Of a stretch of 64,000 nt of DNA, positions 18,495 through 43,100 are shown one piece after another. The stretch lies in NCBI RefSeq assembly GCF_000759025.1, contig NZ_JPOS01000018.1:248001-312000 (forward strand), read 5' to 3'. The stretch is from Phaeodactylibacter xiamenensis (lineage in GTDB: Bacteria; Bacteroidota; Bacteroidia; Chitinophagales; Saprospiraceae). Position numbers and translations under genes: made by a program. The notes beneath the pieces are model-generated. The model was not told the DNA's origin, did not search any database, and was given only the letters and a program-made list of their open reading frames with translations. The stretch's first letter is position 1. Each line of letters starts with the position of its first letter.

Positions 18495-18741
18495 GGTGTC
18501 GGTCATTGGGAAATGATCCACTCGGATGATCGGAGAACACGCTTGGGTGTATCTTAACTTTGAAGTGTAGAGGTATCTGATTGACCCTAACTGGCTGAAT
18601 ACCCGTATGCACCTTTAGAAGCGTTCGTTACTGTTGCACGCCCCCATTTAGTTTCGGTCAGAAATGCAGTTCGGGGTTTACCCTCATTTTTCTAAAATAT
18701 TTGTTGAGGCCACGTCTGCCAATTTTCGTTATCTTGTCCAC

Positions 18742-20289
18742 ATGAAGCAGTTACCCATCGGCATACAAGATTTCAAGGTACTACGGGAGGGCAACTACAT
18801 CTATGTAGACAAGACAGAACACATCCACCGGCTGGCGACTACCGGGAAGTACTATTTTCTGTCCAGGCCACGACGGTTTGGAAAGTCCTTGCTGCTCACC
18901 ACTATTCGCGACTTGTATGCAGGCAGGAAGTCTCTGTTTGAGGGGCTGTGGATTGAGGATCATTGGGACTGGGCTGCCACATCTCCAGTGCTGCACTTCT
19001 ATTTTGACAAGATCAATTACGCTCAGAAAGGCCTCGCCAATGCATTGGTATACGACCTGAACCGAAAGGCGGAGCACTACGGACTTACCCTTGCTGCAAC
19101 AGATTACAAATCGCTGTTTGTAGAACTCCTGGAAAAATTGGCTGCTAAGAACGGCCCCGTAGTTTTGCTGATTGATGAGTACGATAAACCTATTCTCGAT
19201 TATCTAAGCGAAGAGGATTTGGACACTGCGAAAGCGAATCGTCATATTTTGCGTGAATTTTATGGTATCATAAAAGGTTCAGATGCCGATTTGCGGTTTG
19301 TTTTACTCACTGGCGTATCCAAATTTGCCAAGGTTTCTGTGTTTTCTCACCTCAACAACCTCAATGACCTTACGCTACACCGCGAATACGCAACGCTTAC
19401 TGGATACACGCAAGAAGAGCTGGAACATTACTTTACAGATTACATAACAGCTGCAAAAACAGCTCTGGAAATCAGCGAGGCAGCCCTTCTAAAAACCATG
19501 AAGGACTGGTACAATGGCTATTCCTGGGACGGCGAGCATAAAGTCTACAATCCATTTGGAATCCTCAACTTCTTCAGCAACAAAGCATTTTCCAATTTCT
19601 GGTTCTCAACAGGTAGCCCAAGGTTTCTGATCGAGCAGATGAAAGAGCAGGGGGTTTATCAGGTAGAGGATATCGAAGTCAGCAATACGGCTTTGGAGCG
19701 CTTTGATATTGAAAATTTGACACTTGTCCCTCTGTTGTTTCAGGCAGGCTACCTTACGGTAAAATCTTCCAACCGGATGACGGGAGAATACATTCTGGGC
19801 TACCCCAATCTCGAGGTGCAGGAAAGCATGTACGAGCATCTGATCGATGAGCTGGCGCATAATCCGAGCCGGCTAAATACCGGCCGAACGATTCAGGACA
19901 TGCAGCGTGCTTTTATAAGAAATGAACTGGATGAGGTACGCAATATTTTGGAAGCTATCCTGTCTGACCTTCCCTATGAAGTTTTTGACCGCAAATCTGA
20001 AGGGTTATACCATGGCCTGGTTCATCTGATTTTCAATTACCTGGGGATTTATGCCCAAAGTGAGGTGCATTCCTCCAAAGGCCGGGCGGATGCCATAGTG
20101 GAAACCCCAACGCATGTATATATTTTTGAATTCAAGTTTGATCAATCTGCAGAGGCAGCCCTTGAGCAAATACTTTCAAATGCATACGCTGACCGATACC
20201 GAAGCTCTAAAAAAAAGATCACCGGCATAGGCGTTAACTTCAAACCCGACCAACGGACGGCTTTAGATTGGAAGGTAGCCCACTTATAG
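18742..20289 (+). CDS. AAA-ATPase-like / PDDEXK_9 (DUF1703) protein
   Basis: 515 residues from the ATG at 18742; an upstream in-frame ATG at 18664 would add 26 unconserved residues. The N-terminal AAA-ATPase-like domain begins LPIGIQDFKVLREGNYIYVD, with Walker A SRPRRFGKSLLL near residue 50 and Walker B VVLLIDEYDKPI near residue 145. The C-terminal domain shows a PD-(D/E)XK nuclease core: Asp in GRADAIVETP and Glu-x-Lys in IFEFKF. This family is present in many copies in Bacteroidota, and its role is unknown, perhaps in defence or mobile-element control. A TATCTTGT box just upstream (18731-18738) could be the promoter. Confidence 0.9.
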   Translation: MKQLPIGIQDFKVLREGNYIYVDKTEHIHRLATTGKYYFLSRPRRFGKSLLLTTIRDLYAGRKSLFEGLWIEDHWDWAATSPVLHFYFDKINYAQKGLANALVYDLNRKAEHYGLTLAATDYKSLFVELLEKLAAKNGPVVLLIDEYDKPILDYLSEEDLDTAKANRHILREFYGIIKGSDADLRFVLLTGVSKFAKVSVFSHLNNLNDLTLHREYATLTGYTQEELEHYFTDYITAAKTALEISEAALLKTMKDWYNGYSWDGEHKVYNPFGILNFFSNKAFSNFWFSTGSPRFLIEQMKEQGVYQVEDIEVSNTALERFDIENLTLVPLLFQAGYLTVKSSNRMTGEYILGYPNLEVQESMYEHLIDELAHNPSRLNTGRTIQDMQRAFIRNELDEVRNILEAILSDLPYEVFDRKSEGLYHGLVHLIFNYLGIYAQSEVHSSKGRADAIVETPTHVYIFEFKFDQSAEAALEQILSNAYADRYRSSKKKITGIGVNFKPDQRTALDWKVAHL

Positions 20290-25917: not shown

Positions 25918-26144
25918 GGTTGACTTTCTTAACATAATCAACTACGACACCCCAAATTCATAGCTCAACCCAAAATGCTGACCTACAGTGCCTGAGGCCA
26001 CTTATAGTGAACGGTTTAGACTATATAAAAAAAGAGCTATATATTTTATACCTTAGCCGGACCAATTTTAGTCTAACCCCCTGTCATTAAAGACTAAGCC
26101 ATTACTAAAATAGCGGCTTGCGCTTGTATAGCCTACAACAAAAT

Positions 26145-28085
26145 ATGCACTTACCAAAAATCAATAAACAGGCCCGCCAGCTGCTCTGCACTGGCATAGC
26201 AGGCAGATTGCATAAAAAAATATTCCTGACCTTTTTTATTTCGCTGGTTGCGCCCCTGGTAATCCCCTCCAATGCGTTTGGCCAAATTAACACGCCCTGT
26301 GACACCATAAGCCACGACTACTGGTCAGGCCGTTCTCCCCAAATACTGCTCGATACTGTTATTGCCAGATTCAATACAGGCAGCCCTGAATTTGGCTGTT
26401 ATGACGAGCTGTACCGGGAATTGCACTTCTCAGAGGAATTGGATCGCTATAACTATTACCAGCTGATCATCAAAGCGTTACTCTATCAGGGTAATAGCTC
26501 CAAAACAGAAGAGGTATTTCAGGAATTCAGATCTTTTGCATTCGCAGCCGAGGACAAGAGTTGCGAGGCCGGGTATTGGTATTCTACCGGCAATTATTAC
26601 TGGATGGTCGTGGCCGAACAGCTGGACAGTGCTATTTATGCTTATCAGAAAGCAGCTGCTCTTTATATTGAAAACGGGGACAAGCACAAGCTCTATCTTA
26701 TATACTGTAATCTGAGCAGTGTTTATCTGGATCAAAAGAAGTACGATGCCGCCTATCAGTACCTGCTTATGGCTGAAAAACTGATGAATGAGCGGGAAGG
26801 GCTGGTTCGTGAATTGGAACGCGCTATTTTGAGGAACAACATAGGCGTGACGCACCTGCGCAGGAAGCAGTATGAAAAAGCAGATTCCATTTTCCGGAAA
26901 GTTGAAGAAAGTATGCTGCATTCAGAGGAAGGGGCCTATCCGATTGCATTGAGCTTGCTCAATCGTATGGATATTGCAATAACCCTTGAGGAATGGGAAA
27001 AGGCAGCTGCAATTCAACAGAAACTAGGCCCTTATCTCAGTGAATTTGAATACTTCTTTCCATTTTATGCCAAGATAGCTTTCGATCTCCACCTGGGAGC
27101 CGGGGACTATGAGAAGGCCCGGGCTATGATCAATCGTTTTGAAGCCTATATTCTGAAGAAAGATATTGAAAAGCCAGCAGACTACTTCGCCATGCAAATT
27201 GACTACCACCTGGCATTTAAGCAGGCCAAAGAGGCTTTAAAAGATATACAGCAGGCGGCATCTCTGGCAGATCTGGACCGGAAAACCCTCATTTACTTAT
27301 CTCGCAGCCGGCTGAACGCCTACCTTTTACAAGGTGACGAAGCCTCAGCGCTCAGCGAATCAAAAAACCTGCAGGAACAAAGCGAGGCCCTGCAAGAAGA
27401 ACAGCAGCAGAGACATCAGGAGGAAATGGCTGCTATCTATGAGCTGGAATCTTACAAAGCTGCCAGGGACCGCGCCGAAAGTATCGCCAAATTAGCAGAG
27501 GAACGCACAAAGCTCCTGGAGCGTAATTATCTATACCTGGGAGCTGCCTTACTGTTTGCCATGGCAGGGCTCGTTGTGCTCGGTTTTTTATTCAAAAGCA
27601 ATAAGCAGCGCGTGCTGGAAGAGCAAATCCGCGTTCAGACCGCTAAAAAGCACAGTCAGCAATTGGAGAAGCAACTTAAGGTACAACGCCAAAACGCCTT
27701 TCAAAGTGGAATTGGAGCCGCACAACTCAAGACCAATATCATGGATGCAGTCGGCCGTTACGCCCCTAAAGCCAAAATGCTGAAGCGCAAGTTAAGCATC
27801 CTTCTGCACGAGTATGCTGAACAGAGCAACTTCGTGGAGCTTTTCCTTTTGTCCTATCCTGATTTTTTCAAAGCGCTCACCAAAATAGCACCCGACTTAA
27901 CGCAATCGCAGCTCCGTTACGCCATTCTCATTGCACTGGGTGCTTCTATGGTAGAGATATCAGAGACACTGGGGGTTAGTGAGCATGCTGTAAAGATGGC
28001 GCGCTATCGGCTAAAAGGAAAGCTGGGGCTCGATAAAGAGGAAAGCATTGAGCAGTACCTGCGCGAGTTGCTGTTACAGGAATAG
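26145..28085 (+). CDS. TPR regulator with membrane segment and LuxR-like HTH
   Basis: 646 residues from the ATG at 26145 (the open frame extends to a TTG at 26118). An N-terminal signal/anchor ends near residue 45 (PLVIPSNAFGQ), followed by TPR-like helices to about 415, a coiled coil of Gln/Glu/Ala, a membrane helix (YLYLGAALLFAMAGLVVLGF) near 476-497, a second coiled coil and a C-terminal HTH: LTQSQLRYAILIALGASMVE with ISETLGVSEHAVKMARYRLK. The sensor part would be periplasmic and the DNA-binding part cytoplasmic. The AT-rich leader (25918-26144) has no gene. It faces the pilus-like operon and is a candidate regulator of it. Confidence 0.85.
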   Translation: MHLPKINKQARQLLCTGIAGRLHKKIFLTFFISLVAPLVIPSNAFGQINTPCDTISHDYWSGRSPQILLDTVIARFNTGSPEFGCYDELYRELHFSEELDRYNYYQLIIKALLYQGNSSKTEEVFQEFRSFAFAAEDKSCEAGYWYSTGNYYWMVVAEQLDSAIYAYQKAAALYIENGDKHKLYLIYCNLSSVYLDQKKYDAAYQYLLMAEKLMNEREGLVRELERAILRNNIGVTHLRRKQYEKADSIFRKVEESMLHSEEGAYPIALSLLNRMDIAITLEEWEKAAAIQQKLGPYLSEFEYFFPFYAKIAFDLHLGAGDYEKARAMINRFEAYILKKDIEKPADYFAMQIDYHLAFKQAKEALKDIQQAASLADLDRKTLIYLSRSRLNAYLLQGDEASALSESKNLQEQSEALQEEQQQRHQEEMAAIYELESYKAARDRAESIAKLAEERTKLLERNYLYLGAALLFAMAGLVVLGFLFKSNKQRVLEEQIRVQTAKKHSQQLEKQLKVQRQNAFQSGIGAAQLKTNIMDAVGRYAPKAKMLKRKLSILLHEYAEQSNFVELFLLSYPDFFKALTKIAPDLTQSQLRYAILIALGASMVEISETLGVSEHAVKMARYRLKGKLGLDKEESIEQYLRELLLQE

Positions 28086-28132: not shown

Positions 28133-30682
28133 CTACTGAACATCAAAAGCGACTTTCACTGACTGTCCGTACCTTGAGGGCTTTATCTCTATAAGCCAGC
28201 CGTCTTCCTTTCCTAAAGTATACCGTGGGTTCATTGTCAACCAATACCTGCCTGGGCGTATCTGAGTGAAGGAGAAGTAGCCATCCCGCTCCGGATAGGT
28301 TTGTGCAAGCAGCTTGCCGTCCCGGTCATACAAGTATACCACAGCGGCCATGATACGGGCTTGTGCATCTGCGCCATCAGGCTGCAAGTAACCGTAGATT
28401 TCGTGATAGGGCAGCACCGGTATATCAATCCGTTTGTACTGATTGGGGTCTGGCACGACAGCTGCGGATTGATAGGCAGGCTCCCAGAAGATATCCTCAA
28501 AAAAGCCTGGTGAAAATTCCAGCCGTACCTCCCGGGAAGCCTGCAGCCCTTTGACCAGGATTACACTATCCCTGGGCTGCTCTTCTACCCGCCCTCCTTT
28601 GGCCTCCACGCCCAGGCCAAGCACAGCGTATTCCAATTCATCCCGGCGGCCATTATGGTTGGCATCCACAAACGGGCGCAAAAGAATACCAGTTTCACCG
28701 GGGACAGGCTGGGCATTGAGCTGTAGCCCGCCGCCTGACCCTACCCAAAAAAGGTGCCCGGATGCCGATTGGTCCAGTGACAAGCGGGTATCCGAGCGGG
28801 AGGCATTACCGGATAATTGTACAGGACCGACAACCAAACTGTAATTAATGCCGAAGGAATGCCGCCCCTGATCAACGCCATAACTGTAGTTGATGCCAAG
28901 CCGGGCACCTTTGGAGAATTGTTTTGACAAGTTCGCCTGTAGCCCGTTGAGCCTCAAGGGATGGAGGCTCGCCTGAACAACTCCGGAAAAGGAGATGGCT
29001 TTCCACAACTGACGAGATAGACTGAAGTTGCTGCCCAAACCTATATCCCGTAAACCAGAAGGCATAGCTAGCAATTGCGCGCGCAGGGCCGTCCCCTTTA
29101 GGTTAGAGGAGAGGCCCAGCTGATACTGCCCCCGCCACGGCCCGCCATTGCGGATCCAAGTGCCTTGGGCATTCACCCCAATCCGGTGACGGCCAAGCTT
29201 CAGGCTTGTCCGGGCCTGCACCCGGTGCTCCTCCTGATTGGGGATGAACGCCCCTTCGAGGTCCTCCGTGTAGCGTTCGCCCTGATACTGCACTGACAAC
29301 TGCCTGAAAGGTTGGACAGAAAGGCGCAGAGACTGCCGGAAGCCCGGGGCAATACCTGCTTCCAGAGACAAACCTGCGGATGGCTGGAACAGGCCTTCAA
29401 GGTAATACACCGGAAGCCCGCCCCTTAGGCTGCTGAAACTTTCCAGTCCGCCCCGCACCATAAAATGAGGCGTCACGCCCATTCCTATGTCAATTTTGTG
29501 AAAGCGACCATCTGAGCCTTGTATGATTCGGCTGCTTTCCAAAGAATAGGTCCATTGTCCGGGTTTGGGAATACGGCCCGGAAGGTAATACACCTCTTTG
29601 TAAGTATGCTCTTCCCCGGAAGGCCCGAGCTCACGTACGGTAAATTCATTAATACCTCGTTTAAGTGGGATATCGAAGCGGTAAGCGCCATCCTGGCCTG
29701 ATTTTTTCCAATCCAGCAATTGCCGGCCTTCGTATACTTCCACCACCCAGCCGGGCGTAGTATTGCTACTGATGGTGTACATGGAAGCAGATGCATCTCT
29801 GGTGGTTGCATTTTTGTGCAAGCGTACGCCCGCCCGTGGCCGAATCAACCGTATCATCCCGGTGCCGCCACTACTGAGCGTTCCCACTTCTGCGGAACTC
29901 AGGTAAGGGTTAGCTTGCGGGGTATACAGCCACTGCAGGCGTTGCCGTTCCCAACGAAAATCTTGTTCGGATGCGTGCTGCAGGCTGATAGTCGTGCTGC
30001 CACCAAGGAGCTCAAACCCGGCATCCACGCGCGCCTGCCAAAGCCCTGCTCCATTACCACTGCCGCGCCAATTGGCTTGATAGTCTGCACTTCCGCCCCT
30101 CAGCCAATGACGATGCCTGGAAAAAACGGTATCCGGTGGAGACCCCTCCGTTTTCTTGCCTTCCCCAGCTCTGTTACGCTTTTCTGCCAGCCGGGCATTG
30201 CGGATTATTGGCAACTCCACCTCTGGCTTCATGGTTGCCGTTAGCGCCTGCAGATCAAAAGTGGTGGGCAGCCGGAAAGCACGGCCCCAATATTCCAGGC
30301 CTAAGTAGCAGCTTCCATCGCTGTGCATAGTGAGCGCGGAAGCTTCCAGCCGGAACAGGGTATCAAAGACGAACAGGGACTTTTCGGGAAAGGAAAGCCG
30401 GTAAGGATTGTCCTCCTGCAGATAAAACCCGCTAAGTTCCTGTGGCAGAGTGTCAGGGCTTACCTTAACGCTGAAGGCCTGCAGCAGCGCCCGTACCGGC
30501 AATTTGACGGCGTTGGTTTCCAGGTCAATCAGGGCAGAAACATTGAATGCGCCAGCTTCCTCGACCTCCAGGCGCAGCACGAATTCTTCTTCCGCAGACT
30601 GCGCCCGGCTCACCACCTGCAGCGCCACCAACAGCAGCAGTACGAGCCCGGTACTGAGAACAGCAGGAGCAGGACATCTCAT
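28133..30682 (-). CDS. Usher-like outer membrane protein
   Basis: 849 residues with signal peptide (LLLLVALQVVSRAQ). An N-terminal domain (about 30-170) has two similar halves of the kind FNVSALIDLETNAVKLPVRA and GSCYLGLEYWGRAF. Then comes a plug-like beta-domain near 310-385: PGWVVEVYEGRQLL, AYRFDIPLKRGINEF, EVYYLPGRIPKPGQWTYSLE. That is the pattern of fimbrial ushers. A long beta-strand region (380-680) would form the barrel, and a C-terminal part opens with a Ca-binding-like DANHNGRRDELE followed by a carboxypeptidase-like domain. It is the last gene of an operon with a PapD-like chaperone and DUF4402 subunits. Divergent from proteobacterial PapC. Confidence 0.75.
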   Translation of the reverse strand: MRCPAPAVLSTGLVLLLLVALQVVSRAQSAEEEFVLRLEVEEAGAFNVSALIDLETNAVKLPVRALLQAFSVKVSPDTLPQELSGFYLQEDNPYRLSFPEKSLFVFDTLFRLEASALTMHSDGSCYLGLEYWGRAFRLPTTFDLQALTATMKPEVELPIIRNARLAEKRNRAGEGKKTEGSPPDTVFSRHRHWLRGGSADYQANWRGSGNGAGLWQARVDAGFELLGGSTTISLQHASEQDFRWERQRLQWLYTPQANPYLSSAEVGTLSSGGTGMIRLIRPRAGVRLHKNATTRDASASMYTISSNTTPGWVVEVYEGRQLLDWKKSGQDGAYRFDIPLKRGINEFTVRELGPSGEEHTYKEVYYLPGRIPKPGQWTYSLESSRIIQGSDGRFHKIDIGMGVTPHFMVRGGLESFSSLRGGLPVYYLEGLFQPSAGLSLEAGIAPGFRQSLRLSVQPFRQLSVQYQGERYTEDLEGAFIPNQEEHRVQARTSLKLGRHRIGVNAQGTWIRNGGPWRGQYQLGLSSNLKGTALRAQLLAMPSGLRDIGLGSNFSLSRQLWKAISFSGVVQASLHPLRLNGLQANLSKQFSKGARLGINYSYGVDQGRHSFGINYSLVVGPVQLSGNASRSDTRLSLDQSASGHLFWVGSGGGLQLNAQPVPGETGILLRPFVDANHNGRRDELEYAVLGLGVEAKGGRVEEQPRDSVILVKGLQASREVRLEFSPGFFEDIFWEPAYQSAAVVPDPNQYKRIDIPVLPYHEIYGYLQPDGADAQARIMAAVVYLYDRDGKLLAQTYPERDGYFSFTQIRPGRYWLTMNPRYTLGKEDGWLIEIKPSRYGQSVKVAFDVQ

Positions 30683-30688
30683 AGTCGC

Positions 30689-31363
30689 TTAGTTGGTGGC
30701 TGTGATGTACAGTGAAATTTGGATGACTTCACTTGGTTTAACACCAGGTGGGATAAACAATTGCCCACCGATGCGCAGCACGCATTCGCCCGTATGGGCC
30801 CCTGTGCAGTCCAATTCCCACTCTGGCTCAAAGCGGGCACCATGATTACTGAAGCTTTCTTTTGCCCTAACTGATATGATTGGGGCCTGCCCTTCCGACA
30901 ACCGTAGCCCTTGCAAACTGAGGATAGCCGGCCGGGCGCGCGCTCCAACGGAAATAAGCCCGCCGGACACAGAGGTCTGACCTCTGGGGGTTAGCAGCAG
31001 TACGCCTCCGTTTTCTTCAGCGTACAATTGCCCAAAGTCCAGTTCCTGAGTAACCCAGAGCGATAGCGAAAAAGGACCCTCCACCCCTGCATCCTCAACC
31101 GGGGCCGGATGAGTAGTCGGCCATGACCCGTAACTGCTAGCCTCAGCCGGAAGGCGCTCCAACTCATTAGGAGCCGCCTTGGGCTTAAAACCAGACTTAG
31201 ACATGTTGTATTTCTCAGGATATCCCTGGCGCTCGGGGACTGGCGGCTGTCCATAACTCTTTGCAACAGGATGGAACAGCACAAAACAGATTAGCAACAG
31301 GATGAAAAAGGGCGATCGGATACCCTTTTTCTCTACGCTGCTTTGTGCGGTCTTCCTTGTCAT
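30689..31363 (-). CDS. DUF4402-like secreted protein, possible minor/tip pilus subunit
   Basis: 224 residues. The signal sequence lies after a basic lead (FFILLLICFVLFHPVAKSYG). The mature protein has a variable Pro-rich start and a beta-rich core with LSLWVTQELDFGQLYAEENG, GGVLLLTPRGQTSVSGG and a final IGGQLFIPPGVKPSEV plus terminal strands ISLYITATN, which resembles the DUF4402 pattern (LDFGxxx, GG-LxIPxG, alternating last strand). A final alternating hydrophobic strand is expected of a chaperone-usher subunit. It lies 6 bases before the usher and 11 behind the chaperone gene. Two Cys residues near 190-200 (LDCTGAHTGEC) could form a disulfide. Role as minor subunit is inferred. Confidence 0.65.
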   Translation of the reverse strand: MTRKTAQSSVEKKGIRSPFFILLLICFVLFHPVAKSYGQPPVPERQGYPEKYNMSKSGFKPKAAPNELERLPAEASSYGSWPTTHPAPVEDAGVEGPFSLSLWVTQELDFGQLYAEENGGVLLLTPRGQTSVSGGLISVGARARPAILSLQGLRLSEGQAPIISVRAKESFSNHGARFEPEWELDCTGAHTGECVLRIGGQLFIPPGVKPSEVIQISLYITATN

Positions 31364-31374
31364 AGACCTGTCCG

Positions 31375-32241
31375 TTACTTTGGTATATCGTAGAGGGCTT
31401 CCGCATAAACCGTGGGCTTGCGTTTGTCCATATCTTCCATAAAACGGATGCGCAGCTGGCTGCCCGGCGGCAGTGCAGTGCCCTCAGCCAAATCAAGGGG
31501 GAAAGTGAAGTTGCGGAACAAATTGGGCGTAAACAAGGTCATCCCCTTGCGCTTGATGATTGCTTCAGGTTTTTTATCGGGCTGCAGCAGTTCCACCAGG
31601 AAATCACCATGTAGTGACTGATTGCCACTTCGGTTGACCCGGAAGCCCAGCTTTGAAGGTTCATCTTCTTCTCCGGGGATCAACCGGAGGCTGTCGATGG
31701 CTGCACTGGCACTGGTTTCTCCATGGCGTACGATGACCGGTATCGTAATACCGAACAGCATACTAATGGATACGCCTATTTCTCCGCTTTCTTCCTGGCC
31801 TGTGCCGGGGTTGCGGGCCGCAGCCTCTTGCTGCGTATCCACCTGCCGGAAGCTGAGGTGAGAACGGTACTCCCCCGGCGCAAGGTCGGGCCGGCTACGG
31901 AATTGTACTCTCAGAGTTTGAGACTCACCGGGCTGCAAGGTGAAACGGCGGGGAAACAGCCGCAGATAAGGAGAAGCGGCCCGGTCTTCCTCCCGAAGCG
32001 TGTCTATAGTCCTGTATTGCCCTTCCGGGCTTACGGCGTACTCCACAAAGGAGGCTACATAGGTCAGGGGCTCATCGCTTACGTTGAGCAGATTGAGCTC
32101 CCCTACGTTTTTACGACCTTCCAGGACTATACGCTTGGGAGTCAATAGCAGCCCGCCTTGTGCTATGGCAGTCCCTGCCCATCCTATAAAAAGTATAAGA
32201 GGTATTACACTGTATAGTAGATTTACAGCCGGTTTGCTCAT
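31375..32241 (-). CDS. PapD-like periplasmic pilus chaperone
   Basis: 288 residues from the ATG at 32241; a longer frame to 32310 would add 23 residues in front of the signal peptide. The signal ends in AGTAIAQ. The first Ig-like domain shows LLTPKRIVLEGRKNVGELNL and LLNVSDEPLTY, the usual F1/G1 region FTLQPGESQTLRVQFRSRPD and GEYRSHLSF, which match the fimbrial chaperone family (COG3121), including the conserved Arg near the start. The second domain is present to the end. It would bind pilus subunits in the periplasm by donor-strand complementation and hand them to the usher. Neighbours support this. Confidence 0.85.
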   Translation of the reverse strand: MSKPAVNLLYSVIPLILFIGWAGTAIAQGGLLLTPKRIVLEGRKNVGELNLLNVSDEPLTYVASFVEYAVSPEGQYRTIDTLREEDRAASPYLRLFPRRFTLQPGESQTLRVQFRSRPDLAPGEYRSHLSFRQVDTQQEAAARNPGTGQEESGEIGVSISMLFGITIPVIVRHGETSASAAIDSLRLIPGEEDEPSKLGFRVNRSGNQSLHGDFLVELLQPDKKPEAIIKRKGMTLFTPNLFRNFTFPLDLAEGTALPPGSQLRIRFMEDMDKRKPTVYAEALYDIPK

Positions 32242-32378
32242 GAAGGAATCTTTTTTAGGTCCAAAAATAGAGCCCGAAATAATCCCGGTTATATGGCTCT
32301 TCCTACCCACGCACAGAGAGCAGAACAGCAGTATGGGGCCAAGGGCATGAAAACACCCCTGACTCCACTGCTGTGAGC

Positions 32379-32915
32379 TTATTGATAGGTTACAGTGATA
32401 TTAATCGTTCCTGAATAGCTGCCAGAGGAATCATACGATTCTATTCCTGCTAAAGTACCTCCTATAAGAATAGTTTCGCTGACCCCATTTGAGATTATTG
32501 CGTTCCCTACGATGTCATCACCATTAGCCGTAAAAGCCCCTAAACCACTTTGCGCAGCTGGTGAAAATGTAAACTCTGATATACTACCGTCACCTAGTGC
32601 TACACTCCCATCTATAGTTATACCTACGGTACCACTAGAGCCGGATACACTAAATGAACCTAAAGTCGGATTCGATACAAGAGCTAGCCCATTGGAAGTT
32701 ACCTCCCCATCAACAGTATTAATGGTCAAATCCCCTTGATTACTACCATCCAATAGTACAAAACTCCCTAGATTGAGATCAACTTGGTTAACAATTTGTA
32801 AGCCCTGCAACAACTCTGCGGTGACGTTCATTGTCGCCGAAGCAGTCTGCGCCAGGGCCGAAACCGACATCACAGCCACAAGACCTAATGTGAAAAATAA
32901 TTTACATGTTTTCAT
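32379..32915 (-). CDS. DUF4402 protein, probable major pilus subunit
   Basis: 178 residues, signal peptide FFTLGLVAVMSVSALAQ, then a pilin-like beta-sandwich: TASATMNVTAELLQGLQIVN, VDLNLGSFVLLDG, the GxG-rich strands in the middle, and a final SYSGTINITVTYQ. That is the DUF4402 family pattern: an N-terminal alternating strand with A-T-A-T-style residues, L-x-F/L-G-x, and the last strand G-x-x-x-V-T-V-x-Y. The N-terminal strand could serve in donor-strand exchange. Small size and first place in the operon suit the main subunit. The gene is noticeably AT-richer than its neighbours, a possible sign of transfer or diversification. Confidence 0.75.
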   Translation of the reverse strand: MKTCKLFFTLGLVAVMSVSALAQTASATMNVTAELLQGLQIVNQVDLNLGSFVLLDGSNQGDLTINTVDGEVTSNGLALVSNPTLGSFSVSGSSGTVGITIDGSVALGDGSISEFTFSPAAQSGLGAFTANGDDIVGNAIISNGVSETILIGGTLAGIESYDSSGSYSGTINITVTYQ

Positions 32916-33172: not shown

Positions 33173-36100
33173 TCAGTACCTTACCAGCTTAAGCGTCTGG
33201 CGCCCCTGCGCTCCGGCAGACCTGCACTGGACGGTGTATACGCCTGCCGGAAGCCCCTCCATATCCAGTTTCAATTGCTGCTGCCCGGCCACCGCCTGCT
33301 GAACCGGCAGGGCCAACTGCCCCAGCGGGCCATATATCCGTACTTCCGCTCCTGCCTCCAGAGGTACCGCCCATTCCAGTACCGCAGCGCCAGCCGTTGG
33401 GTTGGGCCAGATAATCAGCCCGTTGCCAGGGCCGGATGTATGGCTCGTGACCGGAGGCGACCACACCTGCTGCTCCAGTACCACGACCCGCACCTTGCTC
33501 ACCGAACCCGACATGCTGCCCGATGGGTCCACCGTAAAGCCCCCCACTCCCACTTCAAAACAGCTCCCCAATGGCTGTGGCATCGATACCGCCGCCAGGT
33601 TCAGCCACCCTGCGCCCAGTATCTGATAACGCCCGCGCCACGTCCCGTTGGAATATTCCAGGCGGATCTTTTTCGCATTCGGCGCATCCAGCAGCGTAAC
33701 TTCACGCAGGGCACCGTCTGCTTCGCGGACTTCCCAGCGCAACAGCCCGCTGCCATTCCAATATAAGCCGGCCATAGCCGCATCCGGCAACAGGCTGCTC
33801 CGCACGCTCAGCCCAATATAGCTGTCCCCGGAGACCGCGCCCAGGTCCAACTGCAGCCCACCTTTGCTCGCACAAAACGGCTGGTGCACAAACAGGTAGC
33901 CGTCTGGGCTGCCGCCACTGCCTGAATGATAACCCCCTGACCATAGGTTCAGTGTCCCGCTATCCGTACAGATGTCCCACGTGGCACTGCCCGGTGAACC
34001 GTTCAGCCCCGTCACCGACCACTCCGGTGGCAGCCCCGGGCTCTGCTGTACGCTCACCGTGGAGGTGCAGGACGACTCGTTCCCATTTACATCTATCGAC
34101 GTGACCTGCACTTCGTACGTGCCCCCGATGTCTTCACAGGTGTAAATGGCGGCGTCGTACAGTATTGTATCTATACCGCAGGCATCAAACCCGCCTGCAT
34201 AAACATCGCTCAGCAATAGCTCGTAAGTGCCATCGTAACTCACCTGCACCTCCGGCGAGCTGCATAATACCGAGGGCGGGGACAAATCCTCTACTGTGAC
34301 CAGTGCTTCGCAACTGCTGCTGTTACCGTTCACGTCTGTGCCCGTTAAGGTAACGGACTGAACACCAACATCACCACAATCAAAAGATGACTGGCTCAGG
34401 CTCAGGCTCACTGCGCCGCAGGCGTCATTGCTGCCGGCATTCACATGAGCTGCTGACAGCGAGCCCGTACCGAAGACGCTCAGTGTTACCGTCCGGCTCT
34501 GGCACAGCATTACAGGGCCCACAGTATCCCTTACCGCTATGGTGGCCGTACAAGTGCCGCTGTTGCCGTTTTCATCAACGCCCGTTAGCGTGACCGGCAG
34601 CTCCCCGACATCACTACAACCGAAAACCGTCCGGCTCAGGAAGAGCGTGTCCAGGCCGCAGGCATCGTTGCTGCCGCCGTCTATATCGCCTAACGCTATG
34701 CTGCCAATACCATCTCCATCAAGGTAGACGGTGTGGTCCGTGCACAACAACTGCGGGGCAATGCTGTCCAGCACGGTCACCGTAGCCGTGCAGAAAGCTT
34801 CATTATCGTTCTTATCCACTGCGGTGAGCGTAACCGTATTCGGGCCCACATCGCTGCAACCGAAAACCGTCTGGCTCAGAAAGAGCGTGTCCAGACCGCA
34901 GGCATCGTTGCTGCCGCCGTCTATATCGCCTACCGCTATGCTGCCGATGCCCTCCTCATCCAGGTAGATAGTGTGGCCTGTGCACAACATATGCGGGGGC
35001 ACCGTATCCTGGACCATCAGCACATAGGTATGCCTGATGCTGTTGCTGTCCGCGTCCGTGGCCCATAGCTCCAGTTGGTTCGCCCCTACGCCCGCAAACA
35101 GGCTCAGCGTGCTGCCCGCTATGGCTGCTTCGGGCATTTCACTGCACCCTTCACAGGATACGCTGTACTGCAGCGGTGGCGCAGTGCAGTTGTCTGACAC
35201 CTCTGCCTGCCACGATAACGACAGCCCGCAGGCCTCGGGGCCAGCGAAATACTGCAGCGTGTCAGAAGCCGGCAGAGCCCCGCTGCCTGCATCCACAAAA
35301 AGAGCGGGGCTGAGGCTGTCCTGGCTCACCAACTGCGCCAAACTGTCTGTAATAAATGGGAAACAGCTGCTGCTGTACGTGCAGCTGCCCGCTTCTGACA
35401 GTTCTATACGGAGGCTATATGTACCCGCTCCCAGCGACTCTACCCGGAATGTGTCCGGCAGCAACTGCCCGCTGCCCAGTTGCTGAACCGGCAGCGATGC
35501 CTCTTCCAGATAAATATCAAAACGGCCGCCGCTGCAATAGGGCGTTGTCAGGCCGATCTCCACATGCCCGTCCGTAGCTTCCGGGCAGGACGGGCCCGCT
35601 GCGCTCAGCACCTCCACTTCTATGAGCGGGTTGCAGGGGTCCCCATCATCAGGGTCTACGTCCGCGTATACCCCATCCCCATCTGCATCGCAGTTCCCGT
35701 TCAGGGCATCAGGGTTACAGGCATCATCAGGATCCGGGTCCAACTGATCGCACAGCCCGTCCCCATCCGTATCAGGGCCCGAGCAAAACAATACAGTGAC
35801 CGTATCCTGAAGCTCGGCAGGGTAGCTGCAGTCTGATGCACGGAACTGCACCTCCTCCACGCCTTCCCAGCCTGGCACGCGCAGGCCTACCGACAGCGCG
35901 CCCGTCTGACTGTCAAGGGTGTAGGACAGAGGGGAAAAGTCCAGAATCTGAGGTTGAGAAGGGGTGCCCAATTGGCCACCACTGACGAAATCAAAAGTAT
36001 CAGGCAAGACAAAAACCCGTTTCAGAGAATCGCTGAAGTAACGGAACTCAATCTCACCATCAATGGCCGTATGGTAGACCTGCATGGTAAAGAGGCGCTG

Positions 36101-37108
36101 CCCATTGATTATCTGCGCGGAGGCCGCCCCCCTTAATTCTCCACCGATGAATGCGCCAAGCTTATCTTCATCTGACTGGAACAGGAAAGATGGGCTGTAC
36201 GTTGTCGTAGCCAGTACACTCATCGTAAAAGGCCAGCCGCCGCCTCCAATGACCCATGAAGCCTGCTGTTCCGGCATACCAATAGCCGGCACTGGCTTGT
36301 AGCTGTAGCTGAGGCAATTACCGGTATAGCTGCTTTCGTAGTCCCCAAGCATCAGGGAAGGAAAAGGCTGACCGGTCATCACGCTTTGAACAGGAATCGA
36401 ATCGAAAGCGGGCCCGTTCAACCCCGGCTCCACGGTCAATACCAGGTTTTGTGATGCACTGTAAGCATTGACTGTTTGTTCAGTGGCCGTTATGGTCAGT
36501 GTATCTGTACCGGTCCAGTCAGGGTCCGCAACCGAAAGGAAAAGCGTATCTCCAGCAATCGAATGCTGGAAATAAAGGCTATTGCTGACTGACCAGCTAA
36601 CCGGGTCCGTGTCTGCCTGATTCAGGTAATCCCGGAGCGGAACAGGAAAAAAGCTCAATCCCTGCAAGCGGGCCTGAGTGGGGAGGCTGTCCAAACTGAT
36701 CAGCAGGTCCCCGTCTGAACTCAGCTGCACGCTGTAGGGCGTACTGGCGCTGCCGGTAACCGATGACTGATCAAAAACAAAAGAAGAAACTGAAGTATAG
36801 ACTTCGTCATCAGCAGCGATGTAAGCCCGGAGCTCTATTTCCTCACCGGTTGGCACATTTGAAAAAATCGTCATAAAATGAAGGACCTTCCCATTTAGGT
36901 CAACGGCCATGGCTTTACCACGGATCTCGTCCCCCACAAAAGCAGCCAGCTGATCATTGGCACTGAGGCTCACCTGCCCATCAAGCTCTAAGACGGCGGT
37001 GAGGTTAGCAGAGTAGCTGAATGCACTGCCATTGGGGGCAGACCACTGAGGGGCTTGTGCCCTGGCCCAGAGCGGTATACTCAACAATAAGAGTAGAAAA
37101 TATCGCAT
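33173..37108 (-). CDS. Large surface protein with HYR-like repeats and T9SS sorting domain
   Basis: 1311 residues, signal peptide LLLLSIPLWARAQ. Two copies of a ~100-residue module (AAFVGDEIRGKAMAV near 67 and GAFIGGELRGAASAQ near 305) are followed by Ca-binding TSP3-like DTDGDGLCDQLDPDPDDACN near residue 450, Ig-like parts, and four HYR-like repeats of about 80 residues, each starting near a D-x-x-x-P-x-x-L-C element with CGLDTLFLS in two of them. The C-terminus (LIIWPNPTAGAAVLEW ... GLPAGVYTVQC ... LKLVRY) is a T9SS type A sorting domain, so the protein crosses the outer membrane by T9SS and is anchored or released at the surface. It probably acts as adhesin; that is inference. Confidence 0.87.
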   Translation of the reverse strand: MRYFLLLLLSIPLWARAQAPQWSAPNGSAFSYSANLTAVLELDGQVSLSANDQLAAFVGDEIRGKAMAVDLNGKVLHFMTIFSNVPTGEEIELRAYIAADDEVYTSVSSFVFDQSSVTGSASTPYSVQLSSDGDLLISLDSLPTQARLQGLSFFPVPLRDYLNQADTDPVSWSVSNSLYFQHSIAGDTLFLSVADPDWTGTDTLTITATEQTVNAYSASQNLVLTVEPGLNGPAFDSIPVQSVMTGQPFPSLMLGDYESSYTGNCLSYSYKPVPAIGMPEQQASWVIGGGGWPFTMSVLATTTYSPSFLFQSDEDKLGAFIGGELRGAASAQIINGQRLFTMQVYHTAIDGEIEFRYFSDSLKRVFVLPDTFDFVSGGQLGTPSQPQILDFSPLSYTLDSQTGALSVGLRVPGWEGVEEVQFRASDCSYPAELQDTVTVLFCSGPDTDGDGLCDQLDPDPDDACNPDALNGNCDADGDGVYADVDPDDGDPCNPLIEVEVLSAAGPSCPEATDGHVEIGLTTPYCSGGRFDIYLEEASLPVQQLGSGQLLPDTFRVESLGAGTYSLRIELSEAGSCTYSSSCFPFITDSLAQLVSQDSLSPALFVDAGSGALPASDTLQYFAGPEACGLSLSWQAEVSDNCTAPPLQYSVSCEGCSEMPEAAIAGSTLSLFAGVGANQLELWATDADSNSIRHTYVLMVQDTVPPHMLCTGHTIYLDEEGIGSIAVGDIDGGSNDACGLDTLFLSQTVFGCSDVGPNTVTLTAVDKNDNEAFCTATVTVLDSIAPQLLCTDHTVYLDGDGIGSIALGDIDGGSNDACGLDTLFLSRTVFGCSDVGELPVTLTGVDENGNSGTCTATIAVRDTVGPVMLCQSRTVTLSVFGTGSLSAAHVNAGSNDACGAVSLSLSQSSFDCGDVGVQSVTLTGTDVNGNSSSCEALVTVEDLSPPSVLCSSPEVQVSYDGTYELLLSDVYAGGFDACGIDTILYDAAIYTCEDIGGTYEVQVTSIDVNGNESSCTSTVSVQQSPGLPPEWSVTGLNGSPGSATWDICTDSGTLNLWSGGYHSGSGGSPDGYLFVHQPFCASKGGLQLDLGAVSGDSYIGLSVRSSLLPDAAMAGLYWNGSGLLRWEVREADGALREVTLLDAPNAKKIRLEYSNGTWRGRYQILGAGWLNLAAVSMPQPLGSCFEVGVGGFTVDPSGSMSGSVSKVRVVVLEQQVWSPPVTSHTSGPGNGLIIWPNPTAGAAVLEWAVPLEAGAEVRIYGPLGQLALPVQQAVAGQQQLKLDMEGLPAGVYTVQCRSAGAQGRQTLKLVRY
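34621..34995 (-). repeat. 240-bp tandem repeat inside the HYR-type gene
   Basis: Two neighbouring 240-base units, beginning near 34621 and 34861, are nearly identical over their first 100-130 bases and encode 80-residue HYR-like repeats. The other two repeat units of the gene are more diverged. High identity suggests a recent duplication or gene conversion. Confidence 0.75.
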
Positions 37109-37167: not shown

Positions 37168-40100
37168 TTAGCGCAGTTCCAGCAACTTTGACACGGCCTT
37201 CTGCCCATGGAGCAGGGTTACAGTGTATAACCCTCGTGGCCATTGCCCGGCCTGCCAGTTCAGCAGGTTAGCCCCGGCTCCGGCTTCTGCCTCCACACGC
37301 CCTATCTGACGGCCGAGCGCATCGGTTATCAACAGTTGTACCGGCCCAGGCTCAGACAATACAAATTCAAAGAACACCTCTTCTTTTGCCGGATTAGGGA
37401 ATACCTTAAACCCGTCCAGTCTGCGCCTCTCTTCCCTGGCAGATACCGGTGTGCTGAATGTCAGGACTTCCGGCGCTTCAATACTGCCTTCCAGCCGGTT
37501 GGCAATGAATACATAGCTCTCATTCAGCCCCGTTTCAGTCTCAGCAACAGCATCATACATTTTGAAAGTGATAGGTTCTCCGCCCTGCTCGTTGGAATAA
37601 ATCGTCAGGAACAGCAGGTAAGCATCAAGGGCTTCAATATAGACTGGCTTGCCACTGCCCCGAACCTCTTCGCCAACAAAGGCGGCGATTTCGTGGTCAG
37701 CAGACAAACAATTGTCCACCTCCTCACTGGCCACCACGGCCACAAGGTTCATGGTGTACTCAAAAGCGAAGGGGTCCACTTCCCAGTAATGGCCTAAGGC
37801 ACCACTACGTTCAGCGATGGCCGGCCCCCGATACTGCGCTGTACTTCCGCCCGTGAAATTAGCAGGGTAAGTCAGTGTCCCGGGGTTGCTCAGGTATAAG
37901 AGGTAGCCACGTGGGAAGCTCATAAAATCGAGGCTTCCCAGCCAGCCAGCCCCGGCATCGTAGAGTGCAAAGCCGGTTTGCCCTTTGATCAGGTCACCGT
38001 TGAGTGGGCTGAGAGAAGCCAGTGCCTCATTAACACCCATGCCTTGCTGCGGCAAATAACCGATCCAGTTCCAGCCCGCTTGCAGGGCCAGGGGGCTGGC
38101 AGAAGGGTCAATCGGCTGGCCGGCAAGCAGGATGGAATCAAAGACAGTAGACTGATATTGATACATGGTCTCGTGAGACAGCGTGTTCAATGAGCCCGCC
38201 CAGGTTGTAGCTTCGGCAAAATACTGGCTGAATGCCGTTTGCCCTTTGATCGTAGCCCCTGCCGGATTGCTCAAGCTGCCCAGGGCAGCATTTATAGATG
38301 GGTCGGGCAGGTTGACATTATAAGAAATCCAGTTCCAGCCCGGGTAAATTGGGATTTGCCGCAAGACCAGATTATTGGTCGTGAGGACTTCCGGGTTTTG
38401 CAGGGAGCCTACAAAACTGTCGGCTACAAACGGGAAGGACTGTGCTACCGGCCCGTAAACCAGACAGGCAGAGGCATCCCAGACCCTGAACTCGACCGTC
38501 TGTCCGTTTGGTGCATTGCTGTAAACCGTAAGGAACGCCATGTGGGTATTTAGCTCCGGCACAGCTTCTACTTTAGCGTAGCCGCGCAGTTGCCCGTCGA
38601 TAAATGCTCCGACAATATCCAGCTTGTCGGTAGAAAGCACCCCTTCAATATTAAGCTGTAAGGCAAGGTTCATGGAGTAGGAATAATCTGCCGGGTTAAT
38701 ATTCCAGGCCGGCGGCGGGCAGGCTACCCTCAGGTCAATGTTCAGGGGCTCGTTACCCTCACTCGTTTCCATGCGCAACGTACCATTGAATAGCCCTCCG
38801 ACCAGGTCAGCCGGGAACTCAAAGGTAATGGTTTCAAAGGCCCCCGGCGCAATCAGCCCGGCAGTGGGGAATACATCCACCCAGTCCGGGATATCCTCCA
38901 GGTTGAAACTTGCTGAGAAGCCCCCCTGATTGCGGATATTGCGGGTGACCGTGACCGACTCGCCTTCCATGGCAACGGTGTTGATGTCCCCGCCTTCCCA
39001 AAAGAGGGTGGAACGGTTGACGAGGAACTCCCAGACGATGGGCGCCTCAATCTGATTGCCGACCAGGTCTTCGATCTCCTCCAGCCTTACCCGCAGTACG
39101 CGGTTTTCGATAAACTGATTGGCGACGTTAGGGACAATCCGGATTTCATCATCCACACAGGTTACGATGGCGTCAATCAGCGCACCAGTAGTGGCATCGT
39201 ACAGCCCCAGGTTATTATTGTCAATCATCCCTGTTCCGGTGCCTGCCGCCTGAATGATACTATTACAGTTGATCCGTTTGGTAAACATGACCGAGATTTC
39301 ATCTCCGGGGCTCAGCACGCCATCGGCAGGTTGAGGCGTACCAAATACCTTAGGAGGCTCTGTTTCTTTCCGCCCCTTGATGATTTTAGAATACCCGGAT
39401 GCCAGGGTCGGATCTGTGCATACAGTCAGGGCGCGGACTTCGTATTCGCCATCAGCCAGCTGAGACATATTCCAGGTGACTTCCTGGAACAAATTGCCCA
39501 ACTGCTGTCGGGGAATTTCGGTGATATTTATCCAGTTACCATCGCCCATGCTCAGGCGGTATTGCACGCGGATGAGCTCAAGGCTTTCTTCATCTGCATC
39601 GTAGCCTGCAAGGATGAGTTTCAACTCGTTGTTATCATTGGGCGTGATGACCCAACCTTCCCCCGGGTCAGTGATCTGGACCTCACTACAAGGCTCCCGG
39701 AAATAGACATTAAACTCCAGCTCCCGGTAGAATTTGGGGTCTATCTGCTCCCGGGACATGCCCAGGGATACTGCTCTTTCGTATTCGCACTGCGAAAACA
39801 GGGCTACTCTGATCCCTTCATAAGTATAAGCCTCCGGCCCCCGCTCAATGGTCAGGGTCACCGGGATGCTTTCCCCGGCAGGGATGGTATAGACTTCGCC
39901 ATCGCCTGCCAAGCCATCTCCGTTCAGCAACAGGGCAGCACCGTTGGGATTGCTCTCCGGTACGAGTGCCAGAGTGTAAAATCCAATATCGCCGGAGGGG
40001 GCCGCATTGCCAAGCAGTAGGTTGAAGGAAGCGCCCTCATCAGCCTCCACATTGGTGGCAATCGTTGTGTTGGCCTGCAGCTGCACCTCTTCCCGGTGCT

Positions 40101-43100
40101 GCGTATTCGGTTCGTGCGGGCAGGAAGTCTGCCCGCTGAGCAGTTTGAAGACTGGCGTCATGTACATCAGGTCTCTGGTGACCCGCACATTCATATTGTC
40201 AAAGGCATCATCATCTGCCAGTACATAGCCCACGGTACTGGAGGTGGATGAAGAAGCAGATCCTTCAATACGACCGCCTGTCGTGATGCCAATATCTACT
40301 TCTGCAACAGCACCTACCCCAGCAACGGTTACTCCTAATCCCACTGATGCCCCTACTCTAACTTCACGCTCAAGCCCAATAGTGGTTTCAGCACTTCCCT
40401 CAATGGTGGATGATTCTTCATAAGTTACGCCATTCCCGTAAAGGTAAGAACCAGCACCAACAGGCAATACCGCCGCTGCCTTCAAAACTTCATTGTAAGT
40501 GATAATGCTCTCCCACATCGCAATACTGGTCTCATCGCCCAGGGTTTCCAGCTGTGGAATGACGTTGTTTTTGATGTGGTTTTCCGTGTACAGGAAAGTG
40601 GATGCGATGCCAAAGGGGTTGGCCCATATCCCGTTATCGAGTTGATACCTTGGCCCCTGCTCGTCCTCCAGGTATTGGAGTTCGTCGGTAACCCCGTAGG
40701 TGACGGCTAAGGCTGCACCTACATACACATCTCCTCCCATTTCGCTACCCACAATCAGGTCACTATCATCGGTAGAAATAGTGTTAGTTGTGGTTAAGCA
40801 GGCATTTAAAGATGATTCGGTGTAGGCTGTGAGCGTTGAAGAAAGACTAGCTCCGTAATCTTGGGTAATATCTACAGGAACCTGCGCAACGACAGGCCCT
40901 GCATCAAAATCAGGCCCTAAATGCGCCGTAATGGATTTCGTTGCATCGACCCCTGCGTAAGCTCCAAGCGTCATGCCCAGACAAAACGTTTGACCCGATT
41001 CTATATAAGAGTAGCTGCCATCGCCCGGTGGGTCCCTTAAAATCAAAAAGGGAATACTAGGAGTCGTAGCCACCGAGGTAGCTGCCCGGGGCTTGCGTCC
41101 CAAAATCACCATATCAAATACGGTATTAGAATTCGCTCCATTCGCCACAGCCAGGACTTCCAGGTTTTTCTTGTAAGGGGCAACCACATTGGGAAAGGTG
41201 GTTGTAAAATGATGCCGCAGCACGCCGTTGGTCATCACGGTATCAATATCGCCCAAATCAGCAATACCGTTTTTGATGGTTAGCTCAGCAGAGTCCAGGT
41301 AACAGACTTCTGTGGGTTCTAAATACACCTCTTGTACCCTAATGTCTACAAAAGTAGGCTCTGCAAAACTAGCAAATTTATCGCCCAGCGCATTCGTACC
41401 GAAGTAGTCCTGTATGACTACCTGAGGGGCAGACCTGTAAATAAATTCCACGGAGTCCAGCTCGGTTGACCGCATATCGAGGGTCAATCCACCCTGATTG
41501 CCAAAATACTGCAGTATGGTATCGACTGGGTGCCCGGTCACAGCAATTGTCACAGAATCGGGGGGCACATTATCGAATTCAAACCACCCCGCTTCGTTAT
41601 CAATTACGACTTTTTCTTTATAACAGCCATTCAGAGTCTCCACCGTCACTTCCACCGCTCCAGTCTCCGGAATGACAGACTTCTTGCACAGTCCACCGGC
41701 TACCTGCCCCCGGATGGTGCGTTTGGTCTTATTCAAAAACTGTACGCCAGCCAGAGGGGTTTGTAAGCTGTAAGCTTCAAATTGCAGGGGGTCGAAGGTC
41801 GTCCCCCCCAAGTTGGTCACGGAAAGTCGGATGTTGGAGCCTGGCTCAAAATCCCCCAGGAAGCGTCCGTTTTCATCCGTATAAATAGGTGGGGTTGCCC
41901 CGGCCCCATTGACCAGGATCTCCGCTCCTGCTTCAAAGCAATCGGTATCTGCAAAACGGACTACTCCGGATACCGGGACAGCGGAGTTGTCGGTAAAGTC
42001 GATTTGACTGACTGCGGTATTGCTGTTGTTCAAATTGACAATACGGGTTTCCGGTGTAAAAAGACGGTTGTCTTCTTCCTGCCGGATTCCCAGGGGGGTG
42101 AACATAGCACCCTCAACTGCCCCAAAACCGGTCATGGCAATACCGGCATCCCGGACTTCTACTCCGCCACCTTCGTTGAAACTGAAGTAGTGCAGCAGGG
42201 AGGGCGTGCCGGGGTCAATGCCGGCACTGGCCGGAGAAGCATGTACCTGCAGCTCATTGACCGTCAGTAATTCATCAAAAACAGCCACTTCGTCTACCAG
42301 CCCCAACAAGGTGTAGGGGTCGTTCGGATTGGGCTGAGCGCCTACGTGCCAAAACTGTTGTGCGAGGTCATCCGTAAAGGTGCCGATGTTGAAGGTGGCA
42401 GACTCCACCCCATCAATAAAAAACGCAGCAGCGCCGGTGGCCCGGTTGAGGTGCAGCGCCAGCCCCTGATAGCCCTGCCCCACAGTTCCAAGGGCGTGGG
42501 TTTGCCCGTTCGCCTGTATATGATACTGTCCGTTGTGTACATACCACTCCATAGCGCCGCTTTCGTGGTACAAGAGCGTCTGCCGGGTTTGTGCATCAAA
42601 AGGTTGAGCAATGATTTCAATCGTGGCCGTATCCGGCAGATTGAATTTTGTCAGCTTCACCCGGCTGTTGAATACCGGGTTGAACTCCAGCGCATAGTTG
42701 CTGTAGAACTTTTTGGTCGGGACCGCCGTAAAGGATTGCCCCGAACTGTAGTTGATACTCTCAATGGTGTAGAACCCGCCGGCATCCGTAATGCCCGCAT
42801 TTAAGATGCCGGGGTTGTCGGTGGTGAACGTGGCACCTCCAACCGGGGTGTCAAAATCATTAGCGGTTACGTCAAATGTTTTTCCCCCCATGCCTTCATC
42901 AAACTTCCAGTAGGCAATCAGCCCCTCTGTATTGGAAGACAACGTAATTTTTTGGTAGGCGATGATTTCGGACTGCTTCAACACCCGGTTGAAGATGCGG
43001 ATGTCATCGAGCTGCCCTTTGAAGCGTCTCGACTGCGTGCGGTCGCTGCCGATGTTAAACAGGGCAGGCTGATGCGCCATTGCACCATTTAGCGTGCCGG

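Follow-up and report, generated by a model that had tools for sequence, protein, structure and literature searches.

A divergent chaperone-usher gene cluster predicted in a member of the Bacteroidota

Chaperone-usher systems have been described in classical (FimC/FimD, PapD/PapC), alternative (alpha; CFA/I, ECP) and archaic (sigma; Csu pili of Acinetobacter) forms. Archaic systems are reported in Proteobacteria, Cyanobacteria and Deinococcus-Thermus in the available excerpts of PMC4654587, and the usher family is tabulated for Proteobacteria, Spirochaetae, Cyanobacteria and Deinococcus/Thermus in those of PMC4827864; Bacteroidota are not listed in these excerpts. A third source, likewise in excerpt, places archaic pili in 'a wide range of phyla' (PMC9452303). 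Two basic residues of classical chaperones, Arg and Lys, serve as anchors for the subunit C-terminus, and archaic chaperones lack both (excerpts of PMC4654587). Here we describe four genes in a 64,000-nt stretch of Phaeodactylibacter xiamenensis DNA (the window; contig NZ_JPOS01000018.1) that very probably encode a divergent and complete chaperone-usher system for secretion and assembly. Among the matches listed, judged by titles and the starts of abstracts, we recognised no publication describing this system; most subscription papers and all preprints were outside reach, so its novelty in print is unproven.

The cluster occupies positions 28133-32915 on the minus strand, and its genes are transcribed in the order subunit, chaperone, subunit, usher. 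The main pilin candidate, P0004 (32379-32915, 178 aa), is an open reading frame with a match to DUF4402, and P0002 (31375-32241, 288 aa from ATG) is a candidate periplasmic PapD-like chaperone by family homology. P0003 (30689-31363, 224 aa), which has a divergent DUF4402 body, is a minor subunit candidate; P0001 (28133-30682, 849 aa) is predicted to be the outer-membrane usher from profile homology and an AlphaFold2 model. A longer frame for P0002 begins with GTG at 32310 (31375-32310, 311 aa), but the ATG at 32241 is the likelier start because MSK there opens a signal-peptide-like stretch and stands at the same place in the homologue of the nearest relative, locus L071 (76% identical). All four proteins have a signal-peptide-like start, read by eye from the sequence. 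With the chaperone starting at ATG, the gaps in transcription order are 137, 11 and 6 nt. A preliminary description had seen four tightly spaced minus-strand genes here: the open reading frames are in place and the motifs it quoted are all present in the translations, while tight spacing holds for three of the four, P0004 being separated from the chaperone by the 137-nt gap. The set is not a chance association, since all four genes recur in this order in L071 (identities of 46, 76, 45 and 57%, the last for the usher). Promoter and terminator scans gave chance level only.

The 849-residue protein is, from its sequence and model, predicted to be an usher whose 24-strand pore is shut by a plug. 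It consists of a signal-peptide-like stretch, an N-terminal domain (residues ~31-151), barrel strands (194-290 and 377-647), a plug (~301-367) and C-terminal domains (~665-849). In the AlphaFold2 model, 6 + 18 = 24 long candidate barrel strands were counted from the DSSP list over residues 194-647, leaving out short strands at 185-187 and 652-656, and a plug of six strands is inserted behind the sixth; PapC or FimD take all of the top 15 places among its structural matches. A model lacking a plugged 24-strand barrel would have refuted the preliminary description, and this was not the result. Comparisons were made with a 35-sequence usher family alignment (A4), a 38-member usher set (A1) and a larger family of 72 sequences. 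Against five E. coli K-12 ushers, the 72-sequence family aligned by hhalign over 576 columns (prob 97.3, E 2.2e-11) and paired P0001 193-817 with FimD 181-847, which takes in the barrel, plug and C-terminal domains. Controls for this comparison gave 0.6% for the reversed alignment and at most 0.3% for LptD, BamA and partial FepA. A4 aligned with four K-12 ushers over 494 columns (hhalign, E 8e-7). The plug domain (29582-29782, minus strand), which is marked by its six strands in the model, also matched alone: its sub-profile (285-385) found the K-12 plug with E 2.3e-6, versus 0.63 for the reversed control. The second barrel part alone gave a weak match at its start only (E 3e-4, 45 columns). 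P0001 is related to known ushers at superfamily level, most strongly through HtrE. The first C-terminal domain starts with an SdrD-B-like loop carrying the motif DANHNGRRDELE (residues 673-684; 28631-28666, minus strand), in which D673 and N675 are nearly invariant in A4.

For P0002, homology to PapD-type chaperones is found at the level of the family profile, and the classical pair of anchors is not. The chaperone profile matched four K-12 chaperones in the N-terminal domain (hhalign, E 5e-6) and matched EcpB with E 2.6e-4; PapD_N was detected at E<=0.1 in 21 of 40 family members (best 1.2e-6). Anchors were placed from the hhalign alignment with K-12 chaperones. None of the 40 members has Lys or Arg at any of the eight aligned positions of the Lys-anchor strand; the Arg anchor is present in P0002, and in 8/38 members overall with P0002 included.

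P0004 is a member of DUF4402 (PF14352; E 6.5e-11, 43.4 bits against a Pfam cut-off of 25.2), which Pfam labels a domain of unknown function. Behind its signal-peptide-like stretch come a donor-strand-like segment (~24-39) and an immunoglobulin (Ig)-like DUF4402 body, and its C-terminus reads ...GSYSGTINITVTYQ. In the AlphaFold2 model (pLDDT 88.1) residues 24-39 lie outside the Ig fold and their hydrophobics alternate, as those of a donor strand would. Across the family this segment has a nearly invariant small residue (Ala in 32/34 subunits). Hydrophobic residues were counted as V, I, L, M, F, Y, W or A; if Ala, Tyr and Trp are excluded, they occupy positions 29, 31, 33 and 35 in 79, 47, 3 and 97%. 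Foldseek with the P0004 model returned chaperone-usher subunits at all of ranks 1-25 (E from 1.1e-3), as did VIA-align in 36 of 50 rows. P0004 has Gly(-14) and Tyr(-2) as K-12 pilins do (17/18 and 16/18, respectively); among 185 family subunits, taken at E under 1e-5 with chaperones removed and deduplicated by the last 40 residues, Gly(-14) occurs in 109 and Tyr/Phe(-2) in 116. DUF4402 was found by Pfam at E<=0.1 in 28/34 members of the subunit family, and SCPU once only (E 0.051). The subunit model was grown iteratively from the same loci, which makes the subunit counts partly self-supporting; the 28/34 from Pfam is independent. P0003 has a signal-peptide-like stretch and ~60 Pro-rich residues before its DUF4402 body, and neither a donor-strand-like segment nor Gly(-14)/Tyr(-2) is seen in its sequence. 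Its homologue stands between chaperone and usher in L071 (45%), with weaker local matches in L072, L073 and L032. We propose that DUF4402 proteins in such operons are chaperone-usher pilins.

A number of results weigh against this interpretation of the cluster. Its support overall is computation on sequence and models. Standard families recover little of it: NCBIfam gave no match over cut-off for any of the four proteins, and in Pfam, where the preliminary description would have looked for subunit, chaperone and usher families, DUF4402 passed in P0004, while P0003 (DUF4402, E 1.9e-4) and P0002 (PapD_N, PF00345; E 0.028, 14.8 bits versus a cut-off of 23) fell below and Usher (PF00577) was not matched in P0001 or anywhere in its genome. 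The usher profile signal depends heavily on HtrE: when K-12 ushers were compared one at a time, A4 gave 94.8% (E 5e-8) with HtrE and at most 1.1% with FimD, ElfC, SfmD and EcpC, and the 72-sequence family gave 95.7% with HtrE, 39.4% with EcpC and 7.3% with FimD. Taken alone, the first barrel part matches K-12 out of register only (E 0.03), and the C-terminal domains match weakly, in register (E 0.02). The N-terminal domain shows no detectable similarity to K-12 usher N-terminal domains in profile comparison (prob 1.0). The pTM of the P0001 model is 0.57. On the subunit side, none of the Foldseek E-values for P0004 falls under 0.001, and the 25 chains represent few proteins, Caf1 for the most part; its VIA Z scores are middling (best 8.2) and 14/50 rows are other proteins. 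The subunit-pilin profile match (E 6.6e-5) spans only residues 1-54, signal peptides included.

Other searches were also sparing. A5 matched single K-12 subunits weakly (best EcpA, E 9e-4). A PDB sequence search with the usher and chaperone profiles returned no usher or PapD entry; the usher profile matched through its own C-terminal domain and through the SPOR tail carried by relatives, found a biofilm surface protein at profile 296-346 (0.022) and had one match at 1.2, the best match of the chaperone profile was a WxL-interacting protein (0.0028), and the subunit profile found nothing better than 0.066. PF00577 at E<=0.1 was found in only 2/38 usher family members (best 2.2e-4). We used two draws of genomes from the phylum, 395 for tblastn and 390 for Pfam and profile counts; in the latter PF00577 passed its curated cut-off in 0/390 and reached E 0.001 in 4. 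The lack of a Pfam Usher match, with SdrD_B and carboxypeptidase-regulatory domains as weak matches of P0001 below cut-off, would suit an unrelated outer-membrane barrel lying by chance beside Ig-like secreted proteins. Against such a barrel stand the usher profile homology, the plug match, the strand count, the structural matches to PapC/FimD and the recurring gene order described below, and we rejected it on the profile homology (E 2.2e-11) and the PapC/FimD top structures; it is highly improbable.

The gene set recurs well beyond the window. P0001 matched 73/395 phylum genomes by tblastn at E<=1e-5, and a pattern scan of an 84,980-genome collection gave 121 stretches, 36 of them encoding a relative, from Saprospirales, Balneolaceae, Bacteroidales, Cecembia, Neomarinimicrobiota, Ignavibacteriales, Cloacimonadota and a few others. 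Gene order was counted in 40 regions from the first set and 36 loci in the second, with some contigs common to both. A chaperone lies on the usher's strand in 39/40 and 34/36, respectively, and its distance from the usher is -60 to 150 nt in 31/40 and 28/36. The misses are L040, L103 and L106, where the usher reaches or nears the contig end; the match in L063, which lies inside a 1986-aa frame and is weak by phmmer (0.41), was counted. At least one subunit is present in 34/40 and 28/36 loci, and three or more in 22/40 and 22/36. The commonest layout in relatives is four subunits, chaperone, usher. The initial suggestion of a chaperone-usher-like operon is supported computationally by the set of genes and its conserved order, the homology of usher and chaperone, the predicted plugged pore and the pilin-like subunit. 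One relative, L089, has a 501-aa frame (L089:13241-14746; usher profile 5.8e-28) beside a full usher in the same locus.

These counts also bear on whether the cluster makes a thin, single-subunit, capsule-like coat, like F1 antigen, instead of a distinct pilus with a tip. The operon has only two subunit genes, its genome has two DUF4402 matches, and Caf1 structures head the Foldseek list for P0004, all of which would fit a coat. The several different subunits of many relatives are more like Csu pili, however, and P0003 differs from P0004 and looks single-use. We consider a coat unlikely.

DUF4402 and the usher occur together. Of the 63/390 phylum genomes with DUF4402, 56 also have the usher by tblastn and the remaining 7 have it by the A4 profile, 6 of them as partial, divergent matches. 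The genome carrying the window has one usher, and its DUF4402 genes are the two of this operon. The chaperone profile alone found a broader set of 132/390 genomes, weak matches included. The draw included five further genomes from the family to which the window belongs: neither DUF4402 nor a full usher was found in any of them, and two have short matches to the C-terminal domain only. Four genomes of family f38 (G258, G167, G215 and G270), missed by P0001 tblastn, have divergent usher-like frames, apparently more than one in each genome.

Many relatives of P0001 extend beyond its C-terminal domains. SPOR domains were found in 19/38 A1 ushers and OmpA in two (E<=0.1), with SPOR-tailed examples from Rhodohalobacter, Aliifodinibius and a Pseudoalteromonas plasmid; C-terminal SPOR domains are carried by the ushers at L121:6790-9978, L082:1139-5506 and L090:6974-10687. 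SPOR and OmpA domains bind peptidoglycan, so the tailed ushers are likely anchored to the cell wall; P0001, which has no SPOR or OmpA tail, would not be.

Relatives are also found on plasmids. By tblastn, 7 plasmid records have a P0002 match and 2 a DUF4402 subunit, all from Pseudomonadota genera (among them Polaromonas, Sphingopyxis, Novosphingobium and Pseudoalteromonas). In the five of seven regions opened (H6 and H8 were left out), a chaperone is followed by a protein of 893-1062 aa; three of these proteins carry a carboxypeptidase regulatory-like annotation, one is labelled SdrD B-like and one hypothetical. The family usher profile finds all five (E 1.1e-85 to 6.6e-150), and PF00577 at E<=0.1 is found in 0/5. 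For one of the five chaperones the existing annotation is already that of a fimbria/pilus chaperone. Upstream lies an annotated DUF4402 protein in 4/5; in Pseudoalteromonas it is a 169-aa protein without a Pfam match. Three of the five plasmids (L119, L120 and L123; Polaromonas, Sphingopyxis and Novosphingobium) are typed as conjugative. In a FastTree of 72 ushers, rooted at the midpoint, the plasmid ushers group with seven sequences of genome family f18, perhaps Chlorobi, and the window and L071 fall on the other, Bacteroidota-side part (support 0.742). The distinct branch that had been proposed for Bacteroidota is supported as a divergent chaperone-usher lineage, but one that extends to Pseudomonadota plasmids.

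Conjugative plasmids, together with the patchy occurrence in the host's family (0/5 other genomes with a full usher), would be expected if the cluster were an ordinary classical operon recently imported from Proteobacteria. Against an import, kinship to classical K-12 ushers is visible by profiles only, the chaperone family lacks Lys/Arg on the classical Lys-anchor strand in 40/40, and the window groups with Bacteroidota-side ushers. We rejected a recent classical import on the chaperone anchors and the tree placement, and regard it as very improbable.

Compared with classical systems, the cluster as modelled has the same 24 barrel strands, six-strand plug after the sixth and C-terminal domains, together with a PapD-like chaperone and Ig-like subunits with an N-terminal extension and Gly(-14)/Tyr(-2). 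It differs in the unmatched N-terminal domain, the DxNxNG loop before the C-terminal domains, the chaperone anchors and the SPOR or OmpA tails of P0001 relatives; classical ushers are not known to continue past their second C-terminal domain. With alternative systems it shares a weak match of EcpC to the 72-sequence family (prob 39.4, E 3e-4, residues 569-805) and to A1 (E 1e-3), the EcpB match and CfaB and CfaE among P0004 structural neighbours, whereas most of the usher is unmatched and EcpA lacks the Gly(-14)/Tyr(-2) that P0004 has. Archaic systems resemble many relatives in having four subunits with a chaperone and an usher, CsuA/B is among P0004 structural neighbours, and most family chaperones lack the classical anchors, as reported for archaic chaperones in the excerpts of PMC4654587. 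The subunits differ from archaic ones in matching DUF4402 and hardly ever SCPU, and usher and chaperone are likened to archaic ones by description, not by sequence. Because usher and pilin are recognisable at superfamily level, PF00577 and the classical pair of anchors are missing, and archaic ushers were compared by description only, we place the cluster in a divergent lineage and in no named subfamily. On balance, we favour the joint view that this is a separate, FCB-centred chaperone-usher family beside the classical, alternative and archaic ones (the last by description only), in which a different N-terminal domain takes in chaperone-subunit complexes and many ushers are tied to peptidoglycan via C-terminal SPOR/OmpA domains; that it also occurs in Pseudomonadota, partly on plasmids; and that it has escaped notice because catalogues place its usher among carboxypeptidase-regulatory or SdrD_B domains.

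In the mechanism that we envisage, the DUF4402 subunits would enter the periplasm through Sec, in keeping with their signal-peptide-like starts. The PapD-like chaperone, as homology suggests, would lend a strand to each incomplete Ig fold; at the usher, the N-terminal strand of the next subunit would replace the chaperone strand, and a fibre would grow outside. P0004 would be the main subunit, and P0003 may, more tentatively, be a single-use tip or end subunit. We infer that such a fibre exists and is used in adhesion or biofilm.

The preliminary description had placed the cluster next to type IX secretion system (T9SS) surface proteins, and in position this is so for one such protein. A 1311-aa protein with HYR repeats and a C-terminal T9SS sorting domain (Por_Secre_tail; 33173-37108, minus strand) lies 257 nt upstream of the pilin gene on the same strand, and is adjoined by a 2291-aa protein with two Laminin_G_3 stretches (37168-44043, minus strand). 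Bacteroidota use both type V pili and T9SS, and with a T9SS substrate encoded upstream the cluster could be taken for a type V pilus of the Bacteroidales kind or for a surface system that depends on T9SS. Yet no lipobox cysteine ends the signal-peptide-like stretch of P0003 or P0004 (by eye), on which ground this was rejected, and to our knowledge ushers are no part of either system; it is scarcely credible here.

On the other side, convergent with the usher gene and 47 nt from it, lies a TPR protein gene (26118-28085, plus strand) with a weak LuxR-type helix-turn-helix C-terminus (below cut-off). Regulator-like genes are also found near some relatives (L071, L072, L119), and these and the TPR/LuxR-type gene might regulate pili. 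Elsewhere in the window are two neighbouring histidine kinases with PAS domains and similar architecture, which may have arisen by duplication (50664-52907 and 52918-55143, plus strand), and a protein with AAA-ATPase_like and PDDEXK_9 domains (18664-20289, plus strand).

As judged by these comparisons, the key usher gene of the predicted system is missed by standard catalogues, and the branch extends to many relatives within the Bacteroidota and to some plasmids of Proteobacteria. If the system is widespread in Bacteroidota, it would give a function to DUF4402 and a likely fibre to many environmental bacteria. So distant an usher relative would also offer a way to ask which parts of an usher are essential and how an usher can anchor to the cell wall.

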